Source of the DNA: Bryopsis sp. KO-2023
Lineage: Eukaryota > Chlorophyta > Ulvophyceae > Bryopsidales > Bryopsidaceae
Direction of reading: 5' to 3'
Length of the DNA stretch: 64,000 nt
Assembly (NCBI GenBank): GCA_030272585.1
Contig: BSYQ01000011.1
Location: 1,984,001 to 2,048,000 of the forward strand
Shown here: in pieces, positions 26,290 through 63,950 of the stretch
Numbering within the stretch: position 1 is the first letter of the stretch
Layout: each line of letters starts with the position of its first letter
Notes under the pieces: generated by a model
Told to the model about the DNA's origin: nothing
Database searches by the model: none
Seen by the model: only the letters and a program-made list of their open reading frames with translations
Translations under genes and position numbers: made by a program

Positions 26290-26297
26290 GCTCCTAC
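26290..26297. other. hAT-1 left target site duplication GCTCCTAC
   Basis: The same 8 bases recur at 53820-53827 directly outside the other end. Eight-base duplications are diagnostic of hAT transposition. Confidence 0.9.
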
Positions 26298-26895: not shown

Positions 26896-28658
26896 ATGTA
26901 CGTGGAACTCAAAGCACGGCAGTATGTCGTGAGGCTCCGGAACAGGCTCCAAAACCGAACAGACCTGTTCCAGCCCGGGACGGTGGTAGATCGGGATGCC
27001 GCCGAGGTGGTGTTCCGGCATTTGACGTCGCTTAACACGTATTTTGGTCTGGAAAATGTAAGTGTATGCTGCCTGCTATCTGCTGCACTGTTTCTGTTTC
27101 GAATGTTTTGACTTAGGGTTACTGTTACTTGTCTTCCTAGGCTCTGTTCTGGAAAGCTGCATCCGCCCTGGACAGCGCTGCGGGAAGCGAAGACGAACTT
27201 TTCTTGCGAGCGTACCGAGCGGGCAACCCCCCTGAAAGGCGCATCGACCCCATACTCGATTCCATTCAGGTGACACCTCCAGGACTGACCAGGAAGGGGA
27301 GCACCAACCTGGGGGACATGGAATACCCCTACATGGTGCCTACAGGTGAGCAGTCCAGCATCAGGTTCAAATTAGGTTGTTTTTCTCTCTGCCCTCTCAT
27401 TCACATTCTGTCTTTTGCAGAACTCCTTCGTGATCGCCAGCTATTGCCTCATCTGGACCAGCTCAGAGAGGAGGTTGCAACCATGCACGAGGTTGATCTA
27501 GATCTGAGCAGAACGTTCGACTGGAGCATCGAAGCTGCAAGTCTTCCAGCACCTGATCCTGCACAAGAGATTTTGCCTGAAGCTACACTTCCAACCGCAG
27601 ATGAACCTGAATCTGAACCTGAACCTGAGGGACCCTCTGAGCAGCTGCCGGAAAACCCGTGGAGTATGACGGACGAGGAGTCTGTTTATGAACCTGAACC
27701 TGTGCTTCACCCTGGTGGAAGAGGCTCCCCCCCAAACATGTTCAGACCTGCTGGAGCTGGTGGAAGAGGGCCACCCCCCAAGCTGTTCAGAGCCGCTGAA
27801 GCTGGTGGAAGAGGGCCACCCCCCAAGCTGTTCAGAGCCGCTGAAGCTGGTGGAAGAGGGCCACCCCCCAATCTGTTCAGAGCCGCTGAAGCTGGTGGAA
27901 GAGGGCCACCCCCCAATCTGTTCAGAGCTGCTGAAGCTGGTGGAAGAGGGCCACCCCCAAACATGTTCAGAGCTGCTGAAGCTGGTGGAAGAGGGCCACC
28001 CCCAAACATGTTCAGAGCTGCTGGAGCTGGTGGAAGGGGGAATGTTGGTGGATGGGAATTCGGGGGAGGCGGCAGGAACAGGAACAGAGCAGGTCAGGGT
28101 GGTCAGGGTGGTCAGGGTGGTCAGGGTGGCCAGGGTGGCCAGGGTGGTCAGGGTGGTCAGGGTGGCCAGGGTGATCATGGTGGTCAGAGGCAGGCAAACC
28201 CCAGACCCCCATTGATGGACAGGTGGCCAATGGATTTTGATGGACAACCTTGCATCAACGACAGTGAGGGGTACCCTCGGCGCAGGCAGGCCCCCTTGCG
28301 AAGGATCATGTCTGAACGGAGCAGGGAACAGCGCAGAACTGCCCAGCGAGAGAGAGCCAACATGCAGACGGAGTACGCCTTCTTCCCCGACTTCACCATC
28401 CAATTCCCGATAACCTTCGCCTCCATGCCCCATCTGAATCAGTTCGTGCAAAACGTGTATCTGCAGAACTGTTACGCTCTCCACAGAGTCCGTGAAGGCC
28501 TCTTCCACCATCAGACCCGTTTGGAGGACCGAAATGTAATGAGGGACCTGGATACTGGCTCGGTTGACTTTGCACCTATCCCTGAAGACCGCACACGTGT
28601 GTATCGGGTCAGGGTTGGACCGGATGGGAGGTTGGTGGAGGAGGAGGAGCCAAATTAA
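26896..28658 (+). CDS. hAT-1 accessory protein, unknown function (3 exons)
   Basis: Exons are 26896-27057, 27141-27345 and 27421-28658, joining to 534 codons plus stop. The first intron is phase 0 after YFGLEN, the second phase 1 after PT. The hAT-2 gene at 60373-62006 has the same two introns in the same phases at the matching places (FGLER, KT). The N-terminal 120 residues and a C-terminal block match hAT-2; the C-terminal block runs IQFPITFASMPHLNQF to LHRVREGL. Between them are acidic E/P repeats, six copies of a 60-bp repeat encoding AGGRGPPPxxFRAAE, and a GGQ repeat. I do not recognise a known domain. Lying inside the TIRs in both elements, it is probably a transposon protein, for example a DNA-binding or regulatory partner of the transposase. 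Confidence 0.8.
27718..28035 (+). repeat. 60-bp coding minisatellite in the accessory gene
   Basis: Units read GCTGAAGCTGGTGGAAGAGGGCC... with a period of 60 bases, so the frame is kept. A GGTCAGGGT repeat follows at 28092-28185 and encodes Gly-Gly-Gln. Confidence 0.85.
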
Positions 28659-28689: not shown

Positions 28690-29045
28690 GTTATCTGTTA
28701 TCTGTTATCTGTTTTTTGATTCACGTAATGAACCATGAACCAGTTTGGTATCTGTTATCTGTTTTTTGATTCACGTAATGAACCATGAACCAGTCTGGTA
28801 TCTGTTATCTGTTTTTTGATTCATGTAATGAACCATGAACCAGTCTGGTATCTGTTATCTGTTTTTTGATTCACGTAATGAACCATGAACCAGTCTGGTA
28901 TCTGTTATCTGTTTTTTGATTCATGTAATGAACCATGAACCAGTCTGGTATCTCTTATCTGTTTTTTGATTCATGTAATGAACCATGAACCAGTCTGGTA
29001 TCTCTTATCTGTTTTTTGATTCACGTAATGAACCATGAACCATAA
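28690..29045. repeat. 50-bp minisatellite between the convergent hAT-1 genes
   Basis: About seven copies of a unit containing ATCTGTTTTTTGATTCACG, TAATGAACCATGAACCAGT, period 50 bases. It lies between the two stop codons, as does the 98-bp array of hAT-2. It could hold the polyadenylation signals of one or both genes. Confidence 0.85.
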
Positions 29046-29332: not shown

Positions 29333-31356
29333 TCATGCCCTGAACAGATGCAGATTGTCCCGGAGCACGGTCAGTTGGTTGACCTTGCTCTCCTCCATCG
29401 CCCTCCTGCGCTTGTTCAGCTGGTGGCCATTGACACTGAACATCCGCTCAACCGAGGCGCTGGAGGCTGGGATGCAGAGATACTCGGCAGCCAGGATCGA
29501 AACTGTTGGGTATGCCGCCTGGTGTACCCTCCACCAGTCCAGAACAGATGAAGTGCTCTGAATAACCCTCCTGACCCCACAATATCGCTCCCACTCATCA
29601 GAATTAGAACCGCCCGTAGCAGATGGAGGAGGGCACACACTGAGCCAGTCCCGTTCGAGATTTTCCTTTTTCTTTTTTTTTCCCTCTCTGCCTTCCCCCG
29701 GATTGTCAACACCTCTGTAATCTGATCGCAGCCGGATCTCCTTCAGCAGAGTCACGCACTCTTGCAGCACATCTGAAACCCACAGATCAGGTCTGCTGAA
29801 TTGCTTCCTCAAGCAAGGAAAGCGCCCTGGGGTGCCCCACAAATACCGATTCACCTCAGCGTCTTCGAGTGATAGTTTGGTCGGATCCAGATGCTGCATG
29901 CACCCGACGGCCAGGAGCCATGCGGGATCGTCAAATTCATGGTCCATGACTGTGCGGAGCACATCTCTGAAGTCTATCACATCCGGTTCCTCGATGTTCA
30001 TGGCATCTACCGCAGCGCTGATCCGAGCCATGAGCATCAGGACGGCACTCCCCGTCACCTTCTTTTCTGCCTCCAGTACCTTGGTTGCTTCCTTGTATGG
30101 CCTCAGAACCAGGTACAGTTCCAGCAGCACTTTCCATTCTTGGGGGTTGATATTGTATTGGGGGGGAAGGAGGGGAAAGAGCTGGATCAGATCGGGTTTC
30201 AAAATCAACAATCGATGCAACATGTACCAGATGCTGTTCCACCTAGTCTCCACCGCCAAGGTCAGTCTGAGAACCTTGTCAGATCTGCGGACAGGTCCTG
30301 GGCAGTCTTCTGCCTCCTCCACGTCGTCTCCATCATCGGGACATGCGTCTTCATCACTTGAATATATTTCCTGTGATGTGGGGTCGTCCTGTTCCTGGCT
30401 CTGATGGTCGTTTTGATTAGATTCCTCTTGTGCATCCTCCAGAAGTTCATCCTCATCAACTTGAGATGGACCGGGGCTCTCACCAAGCCCACCGTTGCCA
30501 ATCCCAGAGGCACCCGTGGCTGTCGAGGACCGGACCACATAAATTAACTCTTGGGGATCAGCCTCCGCTTGTTGCCGTTCCAGATCAGCTTCTTTTCTTT
30601 TGGCTCGATCGATCTGAATCTGTTTCAGCTTTTCCCAATGAGTGGATGCACCCATCACTGTTCTGCACAGATCGTGTACTTTGGCCACAAGGTCGTTCAC
30701 GCTTTGGGGGGCATTTTTCAGACCCTTCTTTACCCCCAAATTTATTCTGTGTGTCCCGCACCCGTGCCAATCGTAACTGTAGTTCATTTCACATGCTGCC
30801 CCCATTCTGGACTCGTGATCGGTAACGATGCTGGCCTGATATCCGGTCAGATCAAAGTCCTCCCTGATCTCGTTCATTTTTGTGCAAATGTCCAAAGCAG
30901 TTGCGGTACCCTCCATTTCCCAGGTCCCGAGACTGATCCGCTTGAGTTCGAACAGATCCTGTTCCGGGTCCCGGTGTATGTAGACAGCCCCCATCGCGAA
31001 CCAATGCTTGGGCTGCTGAGACCAACCATCAGCAACAAAGCATGGTCGGAATCTGCTCAGATCCATATCCTTCATCTTTTTTTTAAGCCTGTTGGAGGAC
31101 AATCCGACCTGGTGAGACATGGATTTCGCTGATAGAGGCGGAGCAGATGCGTTCAGTTGAGTGCACATGTCTCGGAAGTGCTGATCTTCCACTGTCCTGA
31201 AGGGGGCCCCGACGCTGACCAGATAGCACATAACCTTGTGCCGGTACGACTGGAACTCCCGGGTAGTAGGTCCCCATTTAGACACAAACGGGAGTGTTTT
31301 CTGGGTCCCAAAAGAACTGATCCGACCCCCTTGTGTGCCTGTTTTCATGTCCTGAT
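29333..31356 (-). pseudogene. hAT-1 transposase, 3' part of split gene
   Basis: An uninterrupted frame covers the catalytic and C-terminal parts. Family features are FVADGWSQ (first catalytic Asp), IVTDHESRMGAAC (second Asp), CGTHRINLGV, the conserved VETRWNSIWY (TRW motif), and the C-terminal hAT dimerisation block with the catalytic Glu (LCIPASSASVERMFS). The frame continues across the Chr-A insertion into 52700-53016 on the same strand, using one copy of the CTGAT duplication. Apart from the insertion I see no stop or frameshift, so the loss of function is due to the retrotransposon. It closely resembles the hAT-2 transposase. Confidence 0.9.
31352..31356. other. Chr-A left target site duplication CTGAT
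   Basis: It repeats at 52700-52704 outside the other LTR. A 5-bp duplication is typical for Ty3/gypsy integrases. Confidence 0.9.
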
Positions 31357-48415: not shown

Positions 48416-49440
48416 CATACTATGGATCTGATCGATCTTCCAAAACTAAGGTAATATTAGGTCACAGCAGTAATCCGACATCATAACTGCGTCCTAGAAC
48501 CGATTTTAGCAATGATCGGTTTTTTTTTTTTTTTTTTTCATTTTTGGCTGATCGGTGATCGTGATCGTGATCGGCCGATCAAATGTTGATCGTGCTCTTG
48601 ATCGTCCGATCACATGTTGATCGTGATCGTGATCGGTTCGCCGATCACCGATCTGATCGGTTGTTCCGATCACGATCCCGATCACGATCAAGCGCCGCGA
48701 CCTGTCGGCACTTCATCGGCTGACCTTGATCGGTGTGATCGTGATCGGCCGATCGTGATCGGACCTGCATCCGATCATGATCGGTATTGATCATTTGATC
48801 GATGAATTGATCGGTCTCGCGAAAATGCCGACAAGTCACCACCCGCAGGTGTTTCTGAGGTAGAAGGATTCGAACCGGGTACCTAACGGATTAGAAGCAT
48901 ACTCACTAACGCTTGGACCACTCGGAGCCACGGTTTGTAGGTCATCCGTGTCATTATATACGTGATCTGTCAGTCCGACAAACTGAGGTATATAATGACA
49001 CGGATGACCTAATGACCGTGGCTCCGAGTGGTCCAAGCGTTAATGCGTCTGTCTCTAGTCTGTTAGGTCCCAGGTTCGAATCCCTGCACCCCAGAAACAC
49101 CTGCGGGTGGTGATTTCTCGGCATTTGTGATGGACCGATCAATTGACCGATCATGATCCGATCTAATCGGCATCTCCGATCCCGATCCCGATCCCGATCA
49201 AGCGCCGCGACCTGTCGGCACTTGATCGGCTGACGTTGATCGGTTTGATCGTGATCGGCCGATCAAAGTTGGCCGATTAAATCGGTCAGCCGATCAGATT
49301 GGTGATCGGCCGATCTCCATCGATGATCGGCCAAACCGATTTGATCGGCGATCGATCTGATCGGAAAAACCCGATCACGATTTAATCGGTCGGACCGATC
49401 AATCCACGACCGATTAGATCGTGATCGGATCCATAGTATG
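48416..49440. mobile_element. Non-autonomous hAT element (1025 bp) related to hAT-1/hAT-2
   Basis: Inverted ends CATACTATGGATC(T/C)GATC, identical in the first 13 bases to hAT-1-type ends, and an 8-bp duplication. Both flanks carry GATCGG-rich subterminal repeats (48505-48835, 49130-49440). The centre (48836-49113) is not transposase sequence but a fold-back with two tRNA-like segments. It could be moved by the hAT-1/hAT-2 transposase. Confidence 0.88.
48836..49113. repeat. Fold-back core with two divergent tRNA-like segments
   Basis: The outer arms are TCACCACCCGCAGGTGTTTC and its reverse complement. Inner arms GGTCATCCGTGTCATTATAT and its complement flank a loop of about 30 bases. Each arm carries an outward-reading tRNA-like sequence: minus strand about 48857-48932, plus strand 49018-49092. 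Each has an A-box-like GGCTCCGAGTGGTCCAAGC and a B box GGTTCGAATCC. The anticodon arms do not fold convincingly, so they are more likely tRNA-derived than working tRNA genes. Confidence 0.7.
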
Positions 49441-52512: not shown

Positions 52513-52699
52513 TGTTAGGCCCTGTTTAGCTAGGCTTTCACTGGGAGGTTGTGTGCACACTTGAGTTTGAGAAACGAGTGAACAGGGGTGAAACTCGACA
52601 CTCAGAGATAATTAATTTTTACAAGTTCTCTCTGAACTTATCACCCTAGAACCCGAATACCCGTACCACGACTGTACTACATGCGAAACGTTCGTATCA
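52513..52699 (+). repeat. Chr-A complete LTR, 187 bp
   Basis: It begins TGTTAGGCCC and ends GTTCGTATCA. The CTGAT duplication follows at 52700-52704. It is the only full copy of this LTR in the window. Confidence 0.88.
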
Positions 52700-53359
52700 C
52701 TGATCCTTTTGCCTTTTCAAATGGCAGCCCTCAAAGCCTTCCGCGACAGCGATTTCCATTTCGGAACTGATCCGGATACCGTGTTTGGCCGCATGATTCA
52801 AAAGGGGGATCCTGCCTCCCTTCACCCATGACAATTGTTCATGACAGATTCTGCACGACACCACCTTTCTGCCCCGATCATCCTTATACACCAGGATCTT
52901 GCCTTCTGGACTGCTGACATACATCTTGTCAACCCATGTGTTACTTCTCCGAACAGGAATCACAGGAGGGCTTGCACCCAGTTCCAGCAGATCAGCTTCC
53001 TTTCCATTTCTGTTCACTGCAGGGCAGGGCAGGACAGGACAAACACCTCATAAAAGCAGAACCAGAACAACTGGAGAAAGCACAAGCACCTCACACAATC
53101 CAACAAGGGAACACCTCACCCCCCCACAAAACCATAAGAGTACAACAAGGCGGAACAGATCAGGGAGTAACGCACTGTTGGTCAGGTCAGATGCTTGCCC
53201 CGACCCCTGCGGCCCCACGGATGGAACGCTGCCCTGGCGACGAGGTTCCAACCCCCCGCTTCCAGATCCGGTCGGAACTGGTCTCCTCTGGGACGTGTGT
53301 GGGCGTTGCCCCGACCTCGCAGGGGTGACGAGCGCTTTTCTTTTTCCATGCCGGCCCAT
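52700..53359 (-). pseudogene. hAT-1 transposase, 5' part of split gene (BED-type zinc finger)
   Basis: Exon 2 begins at 53016 after CCCTGCCCTGCAG and encodes NTWVDKMYV, then CRICHEQLSWVKGG and LLNHAAKHG, a BED-type C2H-family zinc finger matching the one in hAT-2 (CRICRSQLVYSKGG, LLTHAKRHG). It reaches the Chr-A insertion at 52700 and continues at 31351. A first exon, ATG at 53359 (MGRHGKRKALVTP), probably ends at 53095 before GTGAGGTG; that choice keeps phase 1, as in hAT-2, and the whole joined frame is a multiple of three (866 codons plus stop). The exon 1 boundary is inferred. Confidence 0.82.
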
Positions 53360-53819: not shown

Positions 53820-53827
53820 GCTCCTAC

Positions 53828-55849: not shown

Positions 55850-56240
55850 TAATTTTTTCGTAACCCCCCCTTCTTGTTTTTTTCTAATCCACCCTCTCCC
55901 CTTGTTTTTTTTTAAATCCACCCTACCCCCTTGTTTTTTTTCTAATCCACCCTACCCCCTTGGTTTTTTTTTTAATCCCCCCTCTCCCCTTCCCTTGTTT
56001 TTTTTTTTATCCCCCCTTTCCCCTTCCCTTGTTTTTTTTTTTAATCCCCCCTCTCCCCTTCCCTTGTTTTTTTTTTTAATCCCCCCTCTCCCCTTCCCTT
56101 GTTTTTTTTTTATCCCCCCTTTCCCCTTCCCTTGTTTTTTTTTTAATCCCCCCTCTCCCCTTCCCTTGTTTTTTTTTTTAATCCCCCCTCTCCCCTTCCC
56201 TTGTTTTTTTTTTATCCCCTCCCCCCTTTCCCCCTTCCCC
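55850..56240. repeat. T-run / pyrimidine minisatellite
   Basis: About ten units of TTGTTTTTTTTTAATCCCCC followed by TCTCCCCTTCCC, lengths near 35-40 bases. It lies just beyond the hAT-3 transposase stop codon on the minus strand, where it is purine-rich. Confidence 0.85.
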
Positions 56241-56243
56241 CTC

Positions 56244-56555
56244 CTATTTGTTCATACTAAGAAAAGACATATACCTAACATTTTGGGGCGTAAGGGATGC
56301 CCTTCTGGCTCTAACTAAAGCTCCTACCCTTGAGAAAGACCTCTCGCTGTGCGCACTAGACGCTTGCACCGCCAAAAAGTCAGGGGCGATGCTTTTCAGC
56401 AGAGGGTAGGACGACCCATCCTTTGCCCAAAAGGACAAAGGACAGGCCGTCCTTCTCCCTTCCCAAATCTGATCAAACCTATCTAATTCTGCTCTGCACA
56501 TGCTCCTAAGACTACCTAACCTATTTCCGCTTCTGCCCCCCAACCCCCTCCTACC
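56244..56555 (-). pseudogene. hAT-3 transposase, last exon C-terminal part
   Basis: It encodes the hAT C-terminal dimerisation block: LAVQASSAHSERSFSRVG, then RRASLTPQNVRYMSFL and a stop at 56244. The Glu of SERSFS is the last catalytic residue of hAT enzymes. The frame joins at the CTCCTACC duplication to 62646-62905 (GSGSGARG, then RRGLGGRS), so hAT-2 split this exon. Confidence 0.85.
56548..56555. other. hAT-2 left target duplication CTCCTACC
   Basis: Repeated at 62646-62653. Overlaps in sequence with the hAT-1 duplication GCTCCTAC. Confidence 0.9.
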
Positions 56556-56930
56556 CATACTAGGGATCCGATGCCGACATGTCGGTCATCGATCAAACCG
56601 ATCTCCGATCAAGATCGGTCCCTGCAGTTTCCGATCAAGCCGATCACCGATAAGATCGGTCCGATCAGACCGATCGCCGATCAAAATCGGACCGATCAAA
56701 AAAAAACGGTCCGACTTTTCCGATCAAAATCGGCCGATCACCCAGTTCTGCCTCGGAAACCAGATCGGATCGGGATCGGGATCGGCGGTTTCCGATCAGA
56801 TCGGAAATTGACCGATCTGATCGGCGCGTCGCCGATCATGATCGGCGACGCATTATCACTCGACAACGATCAAATCGCTGGTCCGGCTACCGATTCCCCT
56901 GATCGGCACCACATCAAAGCCCGTGGCGTC
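56556..56930. repeat. hAT-2 left TIR and GATCGG-rich subterminal repeats
   Basis: It begins CATACTAGGGATCCGATG and is filled with CCGATCA/TGATCGG words, including a GATCGGGATCGGGATCGG run. Confidence 0.85.
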
Positions 56931-56953
56931 GGATTATCCGTGTTTCCGTGAAC

Positions 56954-59593
56954 ATGAGAGGCAACAGGAGAAAGACGAAACCGCGAGCGCAACCGCGAGC
57001 GCTGCACCGTATCTTACCTCCCGTCGAGCTGTCCGGGGATGACTTGCGAGGCGAACCGAACGCAGTTCAGCCGACGCCACACCGCTGGAGCTCTGATTCT
57101 GTGAACCCAAAGGGGGTTGCACGCGGAGGGGGAAGAGGATCTGGAACTGGAACGGAAACAGGAGGAGCAGGAACACGATCTGGAACAGAAACCGGTGAGT
57201 GTGGCAAATTTGCTGTGCAGTGAACTCATCAGATGTGATTGTCTTGGTGGGGCACTCTTGGGGTGTTGGTGTTTCCTTGCATCTGCCTCCAGGTAGGGAC
57301 ATGTCACCTGTGGGCTTTGATATGCTTCAGAAGATATGGCCTTGGGCCTCATGCTGGTTGTCTTGTAGTGGATCTCACATTCCAAACATCAGCTCGGACG
57401 CAGGCACAGAACCAGAAACGGACCGGAATCCACACTTGGGTGGACTCCATGTATGTACAGAACAGTGCAGGAGAAATGGAGCGATTTGTGGATGAATGGA
57501 ACAGGAAAGTAGTGACCTGTAGGATATGCAGGAGTCAGTTGGTCTACAGCAAGGGAGGCCGCACCTCGTTGTTGACCCATGCTAAGAGGCATGGTCTCAC
57601 CACCCCGGAGCAGATGCAGATCGCTGTCCACAACGGATTTGTGGGACATCATCAGGAGCAGGGGGGGGAACGGATCGTTTCGTTCGGAAACCAGAGAACG
57701 TTGCCTTTCGTGTCTAGATGGGGCTGCCTGACCAAAGAGTACAAAAACTTCCGGGATCATGTCATGAAATTCGTGGTCAGCACCGGTGCAGCTTTCAGGT
57801 GTGTGGAGGACAAACATTTCAGAGCCATGTGCTCCTCCCTTAATGCATCTGCACCTTGTCTGAGTGCAAAGACCATCTCCACCAACGTTGGGCTTTCAGC
57901 GAAACGGCTCAGCAAAAGGATCCGAGAAGAGGACCTCGGAAAATTCAGACCCTGCTTCGTTGCAGATGGCTGGTCGCAGGAACCGAAGCACTGGTTTGCC
58001 ATGGGAGCTGTTTATATCCACCGGGACGCTGAACAGGATCTGTTTGAACTGAAGCGGATCAGCTTGGGAACCTGGGACCTGAAGGGAAATTGTGATGCTG
58101 AGGACATCAAAAAAAAAATGGCAGAAATTCGGGATCGGTACAACCTGGGCGATTACCGGGCAAGCATTGTCACAGATCATGAATCAAGAATGGGTGCGGC
58201 CTGTGAACGCAAAGGTGAATACGACTGGCACGGATGCTGCACTCACCGGATCAATCTCGGAGTCAGAAAAGCCCTGAACCAGGCACCTGAGCCGTTGGAA
58301 TTCCTGATCAAGAAGGTCCGTCAGATCTGTGTCCGTGTCATGGGATCTGCCAACCTGTGGGAAAGTTTCAAGACAATCCAAGAAGCGCGCATATACAAGG
58401 AAGATTATGACCGGGACCGGGCTGCAGCGGATGCGGATATGCAGAGCCAGGCCAGCCGGAACCAGGTTGGCAGTCAGAACCAGAGTCAGAATCGAAGTCA
58501 GGCTGGCACCTCCGACCAGAATCAGGATCAGAACCAGGCTGAGGAGGAGGGGCCCTTCCCCATGTACTCCTCTGATGAGGAGGAATGTCCTGATGATGAC
58601 TGGTTGATGGAGGAAACAGAAGACTGCCCTGGACCAGTCAGGAGATCGCAGCGGATCCTGAGATTGACCCTGCCCGTTGAAACCAGGTGGAACTCTGTGT
58701 GGTACATGCTGCATCGGTTCCTGATCCTGAAGGAGGATATGCGTAAAATGCTGCAGACCATGTCTGAAGAGGATCGGTTGACAGAATTGGAATGGATACA
58801 ACTCCGGCACCTGCATTCGATCTTACAGCCATACAAGGAAGCTACCAAGCGCATGGAGGCTGAAAAAACGGTCACCTGTTCGCTGGTTCTGATGGTCATG
58901 GCCCGGGTCAGTGACATCATCGACAAAATGGATTTACCCTGTCAGGACTTGGATCAGTTCAGAAAGCAGCTCAGAAGCAATATGGATGAGGAATTCGATG
59001 ATCCAAACTGGCTCCTGGCCGTCGGATGCATGCAACAACTGGATCCGTCACGTTTGCGATTGGATGATCCTGTTATCACTCGGTATCTGTGGGGATCGGA
59101 CCAGTTCCATGAATTCAAATCTCGGTGGTCTCGGTGCGATCTGTGGGTGAATGATGTGCTAGAGGAGTGCAACAAGCTCATAATGTGCATCAAAGAGAGA
59201 CCGGATCAGGAGGCAGGAGCAGATGCATGCGGCACCTTCAGAGGACCAGAAAAAAGCCCGGTGCATTCCACGTATGACTGGCTCACAGTTGTCCATCCAT
59301 CAGGGGATCCAACCGATTCAGGAACAGATGAGTGGGAACGGTACTGTGCAGTGAGGGCAACCCCCCTCACATCTGTACTGACTTCAGGTCTGGAGTGGTG
59401 GCGGTTAAATCAGGCTCTGTACCCAGCTGTAGCAGTTCTGGCAGCCGAGTATTTGTGCATACCAGCGTCCAGTGCATCTGTGGAACGGATGTTCAGTATT
59501 AACGGGCATCAGTTGAATAAGCGCAGGAGGCGGATTCAGGTTTCCAAGGTGCGGGATCTGACACTGATACGGGACAATCTGGATATGATTTAG
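56954..59593 (+). CDS. hAT-2 transposase (2 exons, 821 aa)
   Basis: It would cut and paste hAT-2. Exon 1 is 56954-57194 (MRGNRRKTK, basic), then an intron 57195-57368 (GTGAGT...TTGTAG, phase 1), then exon 2 to 59593. Domains in order: BED-type zinc finger (CRICRSQLVYSKGG, LLTHAKRHG), catalytic core with FVADGWSQ (first Asp), IVTDHESRMGAAC (second Asp), CCTHRINLGV, an acidic Q/N-rich insert, VETRWNSVWY (conserved TRW), and the C-terminal LCIPASSASVERMFS with the catalytic Glu. All key residues are present and the frame is intact, so it may be active. It resembles hAT-1 transposase along its length. Confidence 0.93.
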
Positions 59594-59639
59594 TGTGGTT
59601 CCCTTCTTTTTTTCTGCAACCTGGATCTGAATCTGTTTC

Positions 59640-60055
59640 TGATGCAAATTGGATCTGTTCCAGATTCCATGGTTTGGCAGGGGTTTTTGTGGAGGGGTCA
59701 GTCTTGGTTTTTCCGTTTTTTAACAGGCAGTTTTTTAACATGCAACCTGGATCTGTTCCAGATTCCATGGTTTGGCAGGGGTTTTTGTGGAGGGGTCAGT
59801 CTTGGTTTTTCCGTTTTTTAACAGGCAGTTTTTTAACATGCAACCTGGATCTGTTCCAGATTCCATGGTTTGGCAGGGGTTTTTGTGGAGGGGTCAGTCT
59901 TGGTTTTTCCGTTTTTTAACAGGCAGTTTTTTAACATGCAACCTGGATCTGTTCCAGATTCCATGGTTTGGCAGGGGTTTTTGTGGAGGGGTCAGTCTTG
60001 GTTTTTCCGTTTTTTAACAGGCAGTTTTTCAACATGCAACCTGGATCTGTTCCAG
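59640..60055. repeat. 98-bp minisatellite between the convergent hAT-2 genes
   Basis: About four copies of a unit containing CCTGGATCTGTTCCAGATTC and GGTTTTTCCGTTTTTTAACA, period 98. It sits just after the transposase stop, as the 50-bp array does in hAT-1, but the sequences are unrelated. Short open frames inside it repeat with the array and are not genes. Confidence 0.9.
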
Positions 60056-60372
60056 TTTTCCGTAGTCTCCCTCGGGGTGAACATCATCCACAAACGGTTT
60101 TACATTTCACTGAGTCCGGAAACCGTTCATCATCATCCACTGAGTCACTGATCCACTGAGTCCTGATCCTGATCCCAATACTGCTTCCTGAAAACTCGAT
60201 ATCCTCCACCAGAGCAGTGTACCATTTCGTTCTTTCATCCACATCCACTCAGTCATCACAAATCATCACATTCCTACCCAGCAAAGCTGATCCTGATCCT
60301 GCTCCTCTACAAAATCGATTTCTCCCACCAGTGCACCATTCCATTGTCAAACTCTGGACAATCATCACATTC
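60056..60372. other. Spacer downstream of the hAT-2 accessory gene
   Basis: Rich in CATCATC, CTGATCCTGATCC and CACTGAGTC words; no coding frame. It includes two similar copies of CATTCCTACCC(A/T)(G/T)CAAA about 100 bases apart. Confidence 0.5.
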
Positions 60373-62006
60373 CTACCCTTCAAACCCACCCCCATGGTGC
60401 TGCTGATCCTGGTCCTGCTCCTGCTCCTCTACAACATCGATTTCTTCCACCAGTGCATCATTCCATTCTCTAACGCTGAACACTGTGCCCGAGTTCCCTG
60501 AATGACGCCTGAAACCGTCCAACCCCCCTCTTCCGGTTCTCCTGTAAACTTTAGTGTCTGATATGACAATGCCATGGATATATAATGCTTCCTTTATTCT
60601 GTGGAGAATCCACGAGTTTTCCAGGGCCACGTTTTGGAGGAACTGTACCAGGTGGACCATCGACCGGAAGCTGATGGGGAATTGGATTTTATAATCTCCG
60701 TTGAAGGTGTACCTGGTCCTGAGCTCCATGTCCTCCAACCGCAGCTGAACCCGCTCCTCATCCGATAATTGGATCTGGTCCTGTTGTACTGGGCACCTTC
60801 TGGGCACGGCTCTACCGCGCTGATCCGTTTGACAGGAGAAGCCATCAAAATCTCTCGGGAACGGGGTTTCTACTGGGTACCTCTGGGGCTCACTCTGGTC
60901 CTGCCTGTGTGCGTGCATCTGGGCCCGCATCTGTTCAAAGTTAGGTTGGGGACCCCTGCCACCACTTCTGAGAGGTTCGTTTCCGAATCCTGATCCAGGC
61001 CTTGATCCTGACCCAAGTCCTGACCCCGATCCAAACCCTGATCCAAACCCCGATCCATATCCTGAATCTGGGTACTCTCCATCTTCATATTCCGCACAGG
61101 ATCCACGCCCTGGTTGAGGTCGGAACTCCCCAATCAGCTCCACTTCGCTGTCATCGTCTCCCCAGTGTTCCACAGGCTCCACCTTGATGAATGAGCCAGG
61201 TCCTGATGGGGCCGGTTCATACGATGCTGCTGGTGGTGCCATTCCTGACCCTGATCCAACCGGTGGTGCTGCTGCTGGCGCTGAGGATCCTGATCCAGAT
61301 GGCATGGGTGGTGCTGCTGGTGGTGCTGCTGGTGCTGGTGCTGGTGCTGGTGCTGGTGCTGGTGCTGGTGCTGGTGCTGGTGGTAATGGAATCGAGAAGT
61401 CTGCAGCAATCTGATCCGAGATTACTATCATATTCTGGACCTCAACTTCTAGCTGAGCCAGGTTCTGTTCCAGGCAATATCCTGTGAGCACTCCTGCTCC
61501 ATACACAACAACTTGTTACCCTAACAGGAAAAAAACAATAAAACAACCGCAGCATCAGATATTCAACTGATTTAACTCACCTGTTTTAACCGATATCACC
61601 CGATGCGTATCCGAAGCCAGGTTCTGGTAACCCTCTCTCACGATTCCGGGTGGGCCTTGCTCCAGGTACACCAGCAAACGGTCCACGAGTCTGGGCAGGT
61701 ACGGGTCGTTGTCCATCGCAGCTTGCAGATAACCGGATCCGAGAGTACTGCAAACCTTCAGGAACGGAACCTACACAACCAAGCAAACAAGAAATCTGTT
61801 TCCGGACAGACACCAACAGCAGCACCAACAGAAACCGCGACAACGATACTTACCCGTTCCAATCCGAAAAACCGACGCAGGGACCGGACGCAGCCATAGA
61901 TTCTCTGCCGCGCGTCGGCAGGTTCTTTTCCCACCGCGGGAGGAATCGCGCCACCGAGGCTGTTAAGCTCCCGGGCGTACCGAATAGCAGGGAACGCGTC
62001 GACCAT
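60373..62006 (-). CDS. hAT-2 accessory protein, unknown function (3 exons, 493 aa)
   Basis: Exons are 61854-62006, 61581-61770 and 60373-61511. Introns are phase 0 after FGLER and phase 1 after KT, as in the hAT-1 accessory gene. The N-terminal part (YARELNSL, RSLRRFFGLE) and the C-terminal block (IQFPISFRSMVHLVQF, LHRIKEAL) match the hAT-1 protein. The middle differs: APAPAP repeats from GGTGCT DNA, Gly/Ser/Pro-rich segments and an acidic VELIGEF patch. The chosen ATG at 62006 aligns with the hAT-1 start; an in-frame ATG at 62162 would add a hydrophobic Cys-rich stretch and is less likely. No known domain recognised. Its place inside the TIRs of both elements argues that it is part of the transposition system. 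Confidence 0.82.
61310..61380. repeat. GGTGCT hexanucleotide repeat in the accessory gene
   Basis: About eleven GGTGCT or closely related units; they encode alternating Ala-Pro on the minus strand without breaking the frame. Confidence 0.9.
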
Positions 62007-62279
62007 TTCAGAAACCGAGAGAAAAAAAACAGGACCTGGGGTAAAGGGACCGAAACCGGGACAAAAACAGGGACCGAAACAGGGACCGCAATATGCAAAC
62101 AGAGACAAGTCCAAGCATAACACGAGAAAAGAAGGTGGCCCAAACGCCTCGAGGCTCGACATATATTGGAGGCAGTTTTGCGCTGGACGTCACATCTGAG
62201 TCATCGGTGTGTCAGTGAACACGGGTAGTCGGATCGCAAGTCGGCATCAGACCCACACAACCGATTTTGAATGATGTGA

Positions 62280-62645
62280 CCGACATTGCGCCTTTCACAC
62301 CGATCATGATCGGCACACCCCGATCACTGCACCGATCAAAGAAAACACGCCGACTTTGATCGGCCGACTATTCCGATCACAGCTCCACGCCTTGATCGGA
62401 TCGGGATCGTGATCGGCCGACGCCGTTCTTTGATCGGATCGGTCGCCGATCCCGATTAATCGGTCCGATCATAACACCGATCACCGATGATCGACGCCGA
62501 TCATGATCGGTTTTGAAAAAAAAAAAAAAAACCGACTTTTTTTGTATCACTCCAAAACACACGTTCGTGAAAACCAGAGTCCGATCCGACCCCGTTTAGA
62601 CCTGTTTACAGCAGGCCGATTATTACCTATCATATCCCTAGTATG
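62280..62645. repeat. hAT-2 right TIR and GATCGG-rich subterminal repeats
   Basis: It ends CATATCCCTAGTATG at 62645, inverse of the left end. CTCCTACC follows. Confidence 0.88.
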
Positions 62646-63950
62646 CTCCTACCCCTTGCCCCGCTCCCACTCCCACTCCCACTGCCCCCCCCCTGTTCTG
62701 TTTCATCACCCCCTGGTGGAGCCGTCAGCAACAATCCCCCAGCTGGGGCATCAGTCTCCGTCCGCACCTCTGCTTGTTCGTCTTCAAATTGCAGGAAATC
62801 TGCACGTGGGTCACTCTGTCGAGGTTGGGCTGGGGGTGCCGCCTGCTCACGCTCCTGAACTGCCTCGGCCTTCTGGGCCATTAAGGCCACAATTTCATCT
62901 CGAACCTGGCAGAATAACAACATCCATCATGGGAATGCTTGATAACATCCCTGCTGGGGATGACCGCTCTGATCTGATTTATATGGATAAGGGAGTTAAG
63001 GATCTTTTCTGTTTTCGGATGCTGATTTCGATTACATGGATCACCCCCTTCCTTCTTTGTGATTTCATGGTTTTCAATCGGTTGGATGATGTATGAAACA
63101 TAAAAAAAAGACTATTTCAGTTGTAAAGAAAAACCGAGTGAAGCGCCAGAAAATGGAGGGAGATATGAATAAAAACAAACAGGCACGCAAAACAAGAAAC
63201 ACGGAAAGCAACCAACACACAAAAGATTGCTCACCTCGCTCCACAATGCCTCTGGGGTGGACCAGTCCCTCGTGACGTTCTGCCACCTGTCATCCCGCCC
63301 CCACTTGAAGGCCTCCTGCAAGGACTTAAAGTCCGTCCGTGTTCCTACAACACCACAGAAGTGGATGTCAGTGGATGTCAGTGGATTCTAGTGGATTCTA
63401 GTGGAGTTCAAAACAAACAACCAAAGACAATGAACAGAAACTTACTTGTGTCCAAGTACCCCAGCACCAGCCCTGCAAACACCCAGTTGGGGTCGTCCAT
63501 CCTCGTGTAGACGCATTGGGCCACCACCCTCATCATGTCCTTCTCCAACTGGGGTGCATCTCGTGCCTTGCTGCCTTCTCGCAGGTGTGCCGCCAGCCGC
63601 ATCATGGTTCGGAACGCCATGCCTCCTGTTGTGTGCTTTGCTGCCTCGAGCGTGTCAGAGACCACCTTGGCGGGCGCAAACACCTTTTCGCACACCCTTA
63701 ATGCATCCCTAAATCACACAACACAACAACAAACACAGTTGATGAATAATAAACAACATGTTAATTCAATTTTGTTTTCTACCCTCCACAGGTACGCTTG
63801 TATTGGTTAAAGAAAATAGTTTACTTGGGATTTACATCGAAACGACTTCATGTGAAGGCCTACCAGTCCGCCCTTTCCAGCGCTCCTTCCGGCAGTTGGG
63901 TGTGGTGGGCATCCAGCCATGCACGCACCGGTTTTTCCAGCTTCAGCAGC
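62646..63950 (-). pseudogene. hAT-3 transposase, visible 5' exons
   Basis: Exons 63864-63950, 63446-63708, 63235-63344 and 62646-62905 join in phase (2, 1, 0) and encode part of a hAT transposase. They include RADWDALRVCEKVFAPAKVVSDTLEAAKHTT across a splice junction (shown as the family's WxxLxxxxxxLxPxxxxTxxLE type), then DDPNWVFAGLVLGYLD, LQEAFKWGRDD and a Gly/Ser-rich end cut by hAT-2. The gene's start is beyond 64000. Introns are short with GT-AG ends (GTAGGC, GTAAGT, GTGAGC donors). The last exon continues at 56244-56555. Unlike hAT-1/2 it has no TRWN-type block in the visible part. Confidence 0.75.

Follow-up and report, generated by a model that had tools for sequence, protein, structure and literature searches.

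The window analysed here is a stretch of 64,000 nucleotides from the green alga Bryopsis sp. KO-2023 (contig BSYQ01000011.1, positions 1,984,001 to 2,048,000), in which two related transposable elements, hAT-2 and hAT-1, each carry a second (accessory) gene convergent with the transposase gene. This second gene is very probably an integral, selected part of the hAT lineage, because of its near-universal pairing with the transposase, the shared terminal inverted repeats (TIRs) and target site duplications (TSDs), the congruent trees of both genes, and a ratio of nonsynonymous to synonymous substitution rates (dN/dS) of about 0.3. The original prediction had described the accessory protein as a conserved part of transposition or its control; its conservation and its integration into the element were borne out, whereas a service in transposition or its control is something that we infer. 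The hAT superfamily is the textbook case of one-protein transposition, and, to our knowledge, elements such as Ac, Tam3, hobo, Hermes, and Tol2 are described as one-gene elements. No two-gene hAT was found in the literature searched, which leaves out most subscription journals and Repbase reports, and the one-gene rule is thereby neither contradicted nor proved.

Organization, mobility, and genome-wide pairing of the two genes

As had been claimed for hAT-2 (positions 56556-62645 of the window), perfect 12-bp TIRs and an 8-bp TSD (CTCCTACC) were found, and the ends enclose two convergent gene models. All copies were taken from one genome assembly (91 Mb in 28 contigs, designated here by C and a number; the window is C11:1984001-2048000), and genome counts are lower bounds throughout. 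Both transposases and both accessory C-terminal domains served as queries, and the subfamilies were named A (hAT-2), A84, B (hAT-1), C, D, and E. Flanks were compared for 20 copies (14 A, 6 C), 18 of which had identical 8-bp TSDs at differing sites; of the other two, one lacked a recognizable accessory-side end and one had unequal flanks. For B (the window copy), D, and E, the ends were examined in one copy each. The D copy (L032) showed the TSD CCCCCAAG, the flanks of an additional C copy (L033) were unequal, one end was found for the A84 copy (L034), and a pair of ends was sought but not found for the E copy (L031). TIRs and an identical 8-bp TSD thus surrounded both genes in 21 of the 26 elements whose ends were sought (the 20 copies, hAT-1, hAT-2, and L031 to L034). 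Both genes lie within these boundaries and therefore move together.

The TSD length and the short TIRs (12 bp in hAT-2, 11 bp in hAT-1) are those of the hAT superfamily. The hAT dimerisation domain PF05699 was detected in the transposases of hAT-2 (821 amino acids in the model; E = 7.2e-15) and hAT-1 (E = 2.4e-18), which share 54% identity over 669 amino acids, and Hermes structures matched the hAT-2 transposase in its PF05699 part. A zf-BED match in the latter protein (E = 0.025, 15 bits) stayed below the cut-off of 20.6. Regarding the DDE triad, the region of the last E falls within the PF05699/Hermes match, and both D residues were placed by eye. The element ends begin with CATAC and depart at positions 3 and 5 from the hAT TIR consensus YARNG, which has exceptions and hence was not treated as excluding. 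Compared with the hAT target preference nTnnnnAn, T occupied position 2 in 8 and A position 7 in 11 of 22 TSDs. The transposase had no Pfam match to a Mutator-like element (MULE) transposase family but matched hAT, and the TSDs measured 8 bp instead of 9 bp; their length and varied sequence also differ from the 4-bp TTAA duplication of Kolobok-type elements. By TSD length and transposase domain, the element is a hAT, and it behaves as a two-component element. Three relatives of the transposase were found in outside sequence collections, the best with 41% on a 2.6-kb contig.

For the pairing count, a transposase copy was classified as full-length if its match covered almost the entire main exon of the query; internal stops are present in some of these copies (three in C17:59564; one each in C13:1006251, C2:8775489, and C2:8795165). 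The count used 33 of 62 rows from one transposase query (A, A84, and C) and 58 of 67 from the other (B, D, and E), the 29 and 9 rows omitted being those of clades that fell to the respective other query. For the accessory genes, lists of 111 and 119 rows were merged, minus second pieces of single copies and some of the weakest fragments. In total, 63 full-length transposase copies were identified (17 A, 28 B, 7 C, 10 D, and 1 E), and in 59 of them a convergent accessory domain was located within 2.5 kb; two more had one within 30 kb, and two had none. The search for transposase-only copies, which the original prediction had proposed as a check, thus left 4/63 copies unpaired at 2.5 kb and 2/63 at 30 kb, both of them damaged, and no undamaged transposase-only element among the 63. 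One exception, C2:8795165, has one stop and has lost about 2.7 kb including the whole accessory gene where a long terminal repeat (LTR) element sits. The other candidate, C9:4136265, was rejected as a transposase-only copy: it ends in the 98-bp repeat, and 40 kb away there is an inverted accessory half that likewise begins in this repeat, so that both presumably once formed one element. The single A84 copy is partial, its N-terminal transposase part being unmatched, yet it is paired.

As a control, a genome search with PF05699 returned at least 150 matches, 56 of which fell outside the two-gene subfamilies (sorted by eye, according to score and place). Three of these 56 lay within 5 kb of an accessory match and one was convergent with it (C9:640567), with a B-type transposase end intervening; in none of the 56 was the accessory gene an evident partner of another hAT family. 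Conversely, 23 accessory rows had no transposase partner. A convergent fragment of the hAT dimerisation domain was present within about 1.1 kb in five of them (C9:10553, C6:920684, C9:641467, C2:1399380, and C1:15578), and the seven that were fetched proved to be truncated elements or short relics. These comprised the accessory half of the split copy C9:4136265 (L059), a truncated A element that retains the accessory-side TIR and whose accessory gene is 97-98% identical over most of its parts (L060), a broken D element that includes a piece of transposase (L061), a degenerate D-like piece (L062), and three short relics (L063-L065). Among the remaining 11 rows, C4:3728744 is another piece of a copy already paired, and C11:2677437 has a dimerisation match 11 kb away. 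A host version of the gene outside TIRs was found in none of the 12 of 23 rows examined in this way (seven fetched, five transposase-flanked), a result that need not hold for every row.

Contig C2 holds six short accessory relics between about 2.56 and 5.05 Mb (2564292, 2948456, 2999551, 4023298, 4415552, and 5048777), the most of any contig; the three C2 relics that were fetched were short. The cluster perhaps marks an old or weakly recombining region.

Structure and evolution of the accessory gene

The accessory protein comprises 487 amino acids in hAT-2 and 534 in hAT-1 according to the gene models, and in both a low-complexity stretch separates an N-terminal block from a C-terminal domain. 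Conserved N- and C-terminal blocks and two common introns had been claimed for this pair, and we could confirm them. In blastp comparisons, which used an initial intron 2 acceptor at 61511 for hAT-2, the C termini matched with E = 2e-22 (39% over 148 amino acids) and the N termini with E = 4e-8 (28% over 130 amino acids); the acceptor was later set at 61493 by comparison with relatives. Both introns have the same position and phase in hAT-1 and hAT-2 (phase 0 for intron 1, phase 1 for intron 2) and are retained with equal phases in A, B, C, and D. As judged by eye, intron 2 is precisely absent from the A84 gene, the C gene has a probable third intron, and the D gene has extra introns within a repeated stretch; for E, the C-terminal part was modelled. 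The repeated stretch of the D gene (L032, about 1480-2000 of the reverse complement) appears by eye to be a tandem repeat whose every copy includes an intron-like sequence, as if tandem duplication had multiplied the introns.

Unrooted trees of the transposase and of the accessory C domain had the same topology for six tips, and the distances in both proteins were correlated (r = 0.70), a value matched by 17 of 720 permutations. As a further check named in the original prediction, dN/dS was calculated between accessory genes and amounted to about 0.3 in the bootstrap-tested pairs, in which synonymous sites are unsaturated: 0.32 for the N block (bootstrap range 0.20-0.50) and 0.32 for the C domain (0.18-0.51) between A and A84, and 0.26 for the N block (0.09-0.48) between B and D. 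In each of these three comparisons, dN equalled or exceeded dS in none of 1000 bootstraps. The accessory protein is less conserved than the transposase, with 34-57% identity in the C domain versus 54-83% in the transposase for pairs with A, and its branches are longer.

Possible roles of the accessory protein

The original prediction had stated that the repeats of hAT-1 and hAT-2 have diverged completely. This applies to the inner tandem repeats, since the minisatellite between the gene ends differs by subfamily (98 bp in A, 50 bp in B), but not to the terminal hexamer GATCGG/CCGATC, which is common to both elements. In hAT-2, 40 hexamers occur in the terminal 860 bases versus 5 in the other 5230; in hAT-1, there are 18 in the first 500 bases versus 3 in the next 4561, and 24 in the last 380; a D copy has 14 at either end versus 4 in the middle, and a non-autonomous relative of 1,025 bp contains 38. 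The 13-mer end sequence CATACTAKGGATC has at least 454 copies in the genome, compared with none for a reversed control, an excess over chance. The copy number of the 98-bp repeat seems to vary between copies, because the gene spacing shifts mostly in 98- or 99-bp steps.

Like other members of the hAT superfamily, the Bryopsis elements combine 8-bp TSDs, short TIRs, a dimerisation domain, and subterminal hexamer arrays, the subterminal hexamer of Ac being AAACGG; unlike them, the lineage has a second conserved, convergent gene. The two proteins would be read inwards from opposite ends, meeting at the minisatellite. By analogy with Ac, the transposase would probably bind the GATCGG arrays, and the accessory protein would act with it on these arrays as an end-binding or transpososome cofactor, much as TnpA of En/Spm, ORF1 of PIF/Harbinger, and the product of mudrB in MuDR assist their transposases. 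Such an end-acting cofactor is the most likely role by analogy, to which we assign a probability of roughly 0.5, and the element presumably needs the second protein. A wider proposal, which we put forward tentatively, is that of an old two-component hAT lineage whose fast-evolving protein of a new family would recognise its own ends or silencing marks and be needed for activity, an independent division of labour of the MuDR/VANDAL type.

Helper proteins are known from other superfamilies. TnpA of En/Spm acts alongside TnpD as a helper at subterminal repeats, one of its roles being anti-silencing, and VANC of the VANDAL MULEs is an anti-silencing helper; both belong to other superfamilies, and Pfam searches of the accessory protein revealed no sequence relation. 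The following systems are described here from the available parts of the cited sources. MuDR of maize contains the convergent genes mudrA and mudrB, encoding the transposase and a protein of unknown function (PMC3440606), and its second protein is apparently required for integration (PMC6446971). Two convergent genes are likewise present here, no more than 2.5 kb apart in 59 of the 63 full-length copies, but MuDR differs in its MULE transposase, long TIRs, and 9-bp TSDs. A relation to MURB was looked for through profile searches of the accessory protein in Pfam and the PDB, where no match was obtained. PIF/Harbinger and Pong elements encode two proteins that are both required (PMC2836001); they have another transposase and 3-bp TSDs, and no Myb-like match was found in the accessory protein by Pfam. 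In Kolobok, a related C/DxxH superfamily, the accessory proteins differ from lineage to lineage (KolX in Kol0, a His-Me nuclease in KolobokP), and that of KolobokP is encoded downstream of the transposase on the opposite strand (PMC9587614). Kolobok elements differ by their TTAA TSDs, and several of their accessory proteins are recognisable enzymes, unlike the Bryopsis hAT protein.

The main rival to a cofactor role, which we regard as unlikely, is an anti-silencing or transcription factor that counters methylation or chromatin silencing at the element's own ends. The lower conservation of the accessory protein between subfamilies and its longer branches are consistent with this, as are the CpG contained in each hexamer of the terminal arrays and the motif IKVEPVE.WGDDDSEVELIGEF, retained by A and A84 within the fast-changing linker and resembling a SUMO site with a SUMO-interacting motif after it. 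However, only A and A84 have this motif uninterrupted; in C, it requires that a third intron be assumed, and it was not seen in B, D, or E. An element-encoded negative regulator, acting in copy-number control or as an overproduction inhibitor, is less probable still: strict linkage would fit, and element-encoded repressors exist in other DNA transposons, e.g., the P element, but a pure repressor should have been lost from some active copies, whereas no undamaged transposase-only copy was found among the 63, and copies of two subfamilies are young and numerous, with 17 full-length copies at 99-100% identity in one subfamily.

DNA transposons commonly capture host genes, and the original prediction had named a captured passenger as the alternative. 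That the accessory gene is such a host passenger, functionless for the element, is nevertheless very improbable, given that every one of the five subfamilies with a full-length transposase carries it, and given the congruent trees, purifying selection, and the lack of a host copy among the examined matches. Least credible is a chance open frame in GC-rich, repeat-rich DNA. Long repeats within the frame, and the fact that the gene is known here from sequence alone, could speak for it; the dN/dS of about 0.3, the conserved intron phases, and protein similarity despite saturated synonymous sites argue strongly against it.

Several results weigh against a selected accessory gene with a cofactor role. 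The profile methods and structure prediction called for in the original prediction were applied without yielding a known family. Neither accessory protein matched a Pfam family above the cut-off, and hence no DNA-binding or other known domain emerged; with alignments, the N block had no Pfam match and the C domain weak ones (best E = 0.046). In the PDB search, the C domain had no match and the N block a single one at E = 2.3, and an AlphaFold2 model of the C-terminal domain from six sequences was unusable (mean predicted local distance difference test score, pLDDT, 50.5). The accessory tree, based on six tips only, contains a weak node (0.524). Synonymous sites are largely saturated beyond the bootstrap-tested pairs: the ten all-pairs dN/dS values for the N block range from 0.23 to 0.62 with dS > 1 in nine of them, and 12 of 15 pairwise values for the C domain are not computable since dS is saturated. 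Between A and A84, the transposase has a dS of 0.16-0.17 and a dN/dS of 0.55-0.63, while dS in the accessory gene is 0.7-1.2, which suggests recombination between subfamilies with exchange of element halves; the A84 transposase is perhaps decaying. Finally, the cofactor role is read from the sequence of a single genome.

Protein searches revealed no relative of the whole accessory protein among 7994 scored candidates, in which matching words were probably dominated by low complexity, and none of the C-terminal region among 218 candidates. None was found in viral contigs and GTDB genomes either, which says little, as these collections seem poor in algae. As far as these searches reach, the accessory protein is lineage-specific, and no connection to another family was found.

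By retaining a second protein in every subfamily found, this lineage offers a natural test of what helpers contribute, whether to the pairing of ends, to integration, or to the evasion of silencing. With the young copies and the 1,025-bp non-autonomous relatives as ready reporters, this question is directly testable.

Feature coordinates and neighbouring sequences

Table 1. Features of hAT-2, hAT-1, and the 1,025-bp relative (window coordinates)
Feature	Position	Strand	Remarks
hAT-2 TSD, left copy	56548-56555		CTCCTACC
hAT-2 left TIR	56556-56567	+	CATACTAGGGAT
hAT-2 left subterminal array, GATCGG/CCGATC	56556-56955		23 hexamers in 400 bases
hAT-2 transposase exon 1 (model)	56954-57194	+	open frame and GT donor; predicted
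hAT-2 transposase exon 2 (model)	57369-59593	+	weak BED finger, hAT dimerisation domain
hAT-2 98-bp tandem repeat	59642-60055		between both gene ends
hAT-2 accessory gene exon 3	60373-61493	-	low-complexity linker and conserved C-terminal domain
hAT-2 accessory gene exon 2	61581-61770	-	gene model
hAT-2 accessory gene exon 1	61854-62006	-	gene model
hAT-2 right subterminal array, GATCGG/CCGATC	62186-62645		17 hexamers in 460 bases
hAT-2 right TIR	62634-62645	-	inverted copy of CATACTAGGGAT
hAT-2 TSD, right copy	62646-62653		CTCCTACC
hAT-1, end to end	26298-53819		11-bp perfect TIR; LTR retroelement inserted in transposase (read by eye)
hAT-1 TSD copies	26290-26297, 53820-53827		GCTCCTAC
hAT-1 accessory gene exon 1	26896-27057	+	gene model
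hAT-1 accessory gene exon 2	27141-27345	+	gene model
hAT-1 accessory gene exon 3	27421-28658	+	gene model
hAT-1 50-bp tandem repeat	28694-29042		between gene ends
hAT-1 transposase, larger part	29333-31348	-	671-aa open frame; PF05699
hAT-1 transposase, N-terminal part	52697-53017	-	past LTR insertion; by eye against hAT-2
Non-autonomous 1,025-bp relative	48416-49440		inside LTR element of hAT-1; same ends; TSD ATGCACGG

The TSDs of hAT-1 (GCTCCTAC) and hAT-2 (CTCCTACC) have seven bases in common, one step out of register. A target specificity for CTCCTAC, contained in both, was considered and rejected; the remaining sites are unlike it, and the agreement is probably a coincidence.

The 1,025-bp relative contains a large inner inverted repeat (48796-48961 and 48988-49153, 85% complementary), in which tRNA-like A and B boxes could be recognized by eye; ARAGORN, run with the bacterial code, predicted no tRNA across the window, including this relative. 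Among the first 100 of the 454 places of the end sequence, 22 neighbouring pairs are oriented towards one another, and eight of these 22 are exactly 1,025 bp long.

A relic of a different hAT family on the minus strand (56244-56558) abuts the left end of hAT-2, and its score group has at least six PF05699 matches genome-wide. Close by, at 55957-56219, lies a pyrimidine-rich minisatellite with a 35-bp unit (7.5 copies, 95% matches). A fungal host, which introns and repeats had suggested, was rejected: outside the window, contig C28 carries an EF-Tu gene in an AT-rich block, and other translations from it were read by eye as AccD, Rpl19, and ClpP, as in a plastid contig of a green alga.

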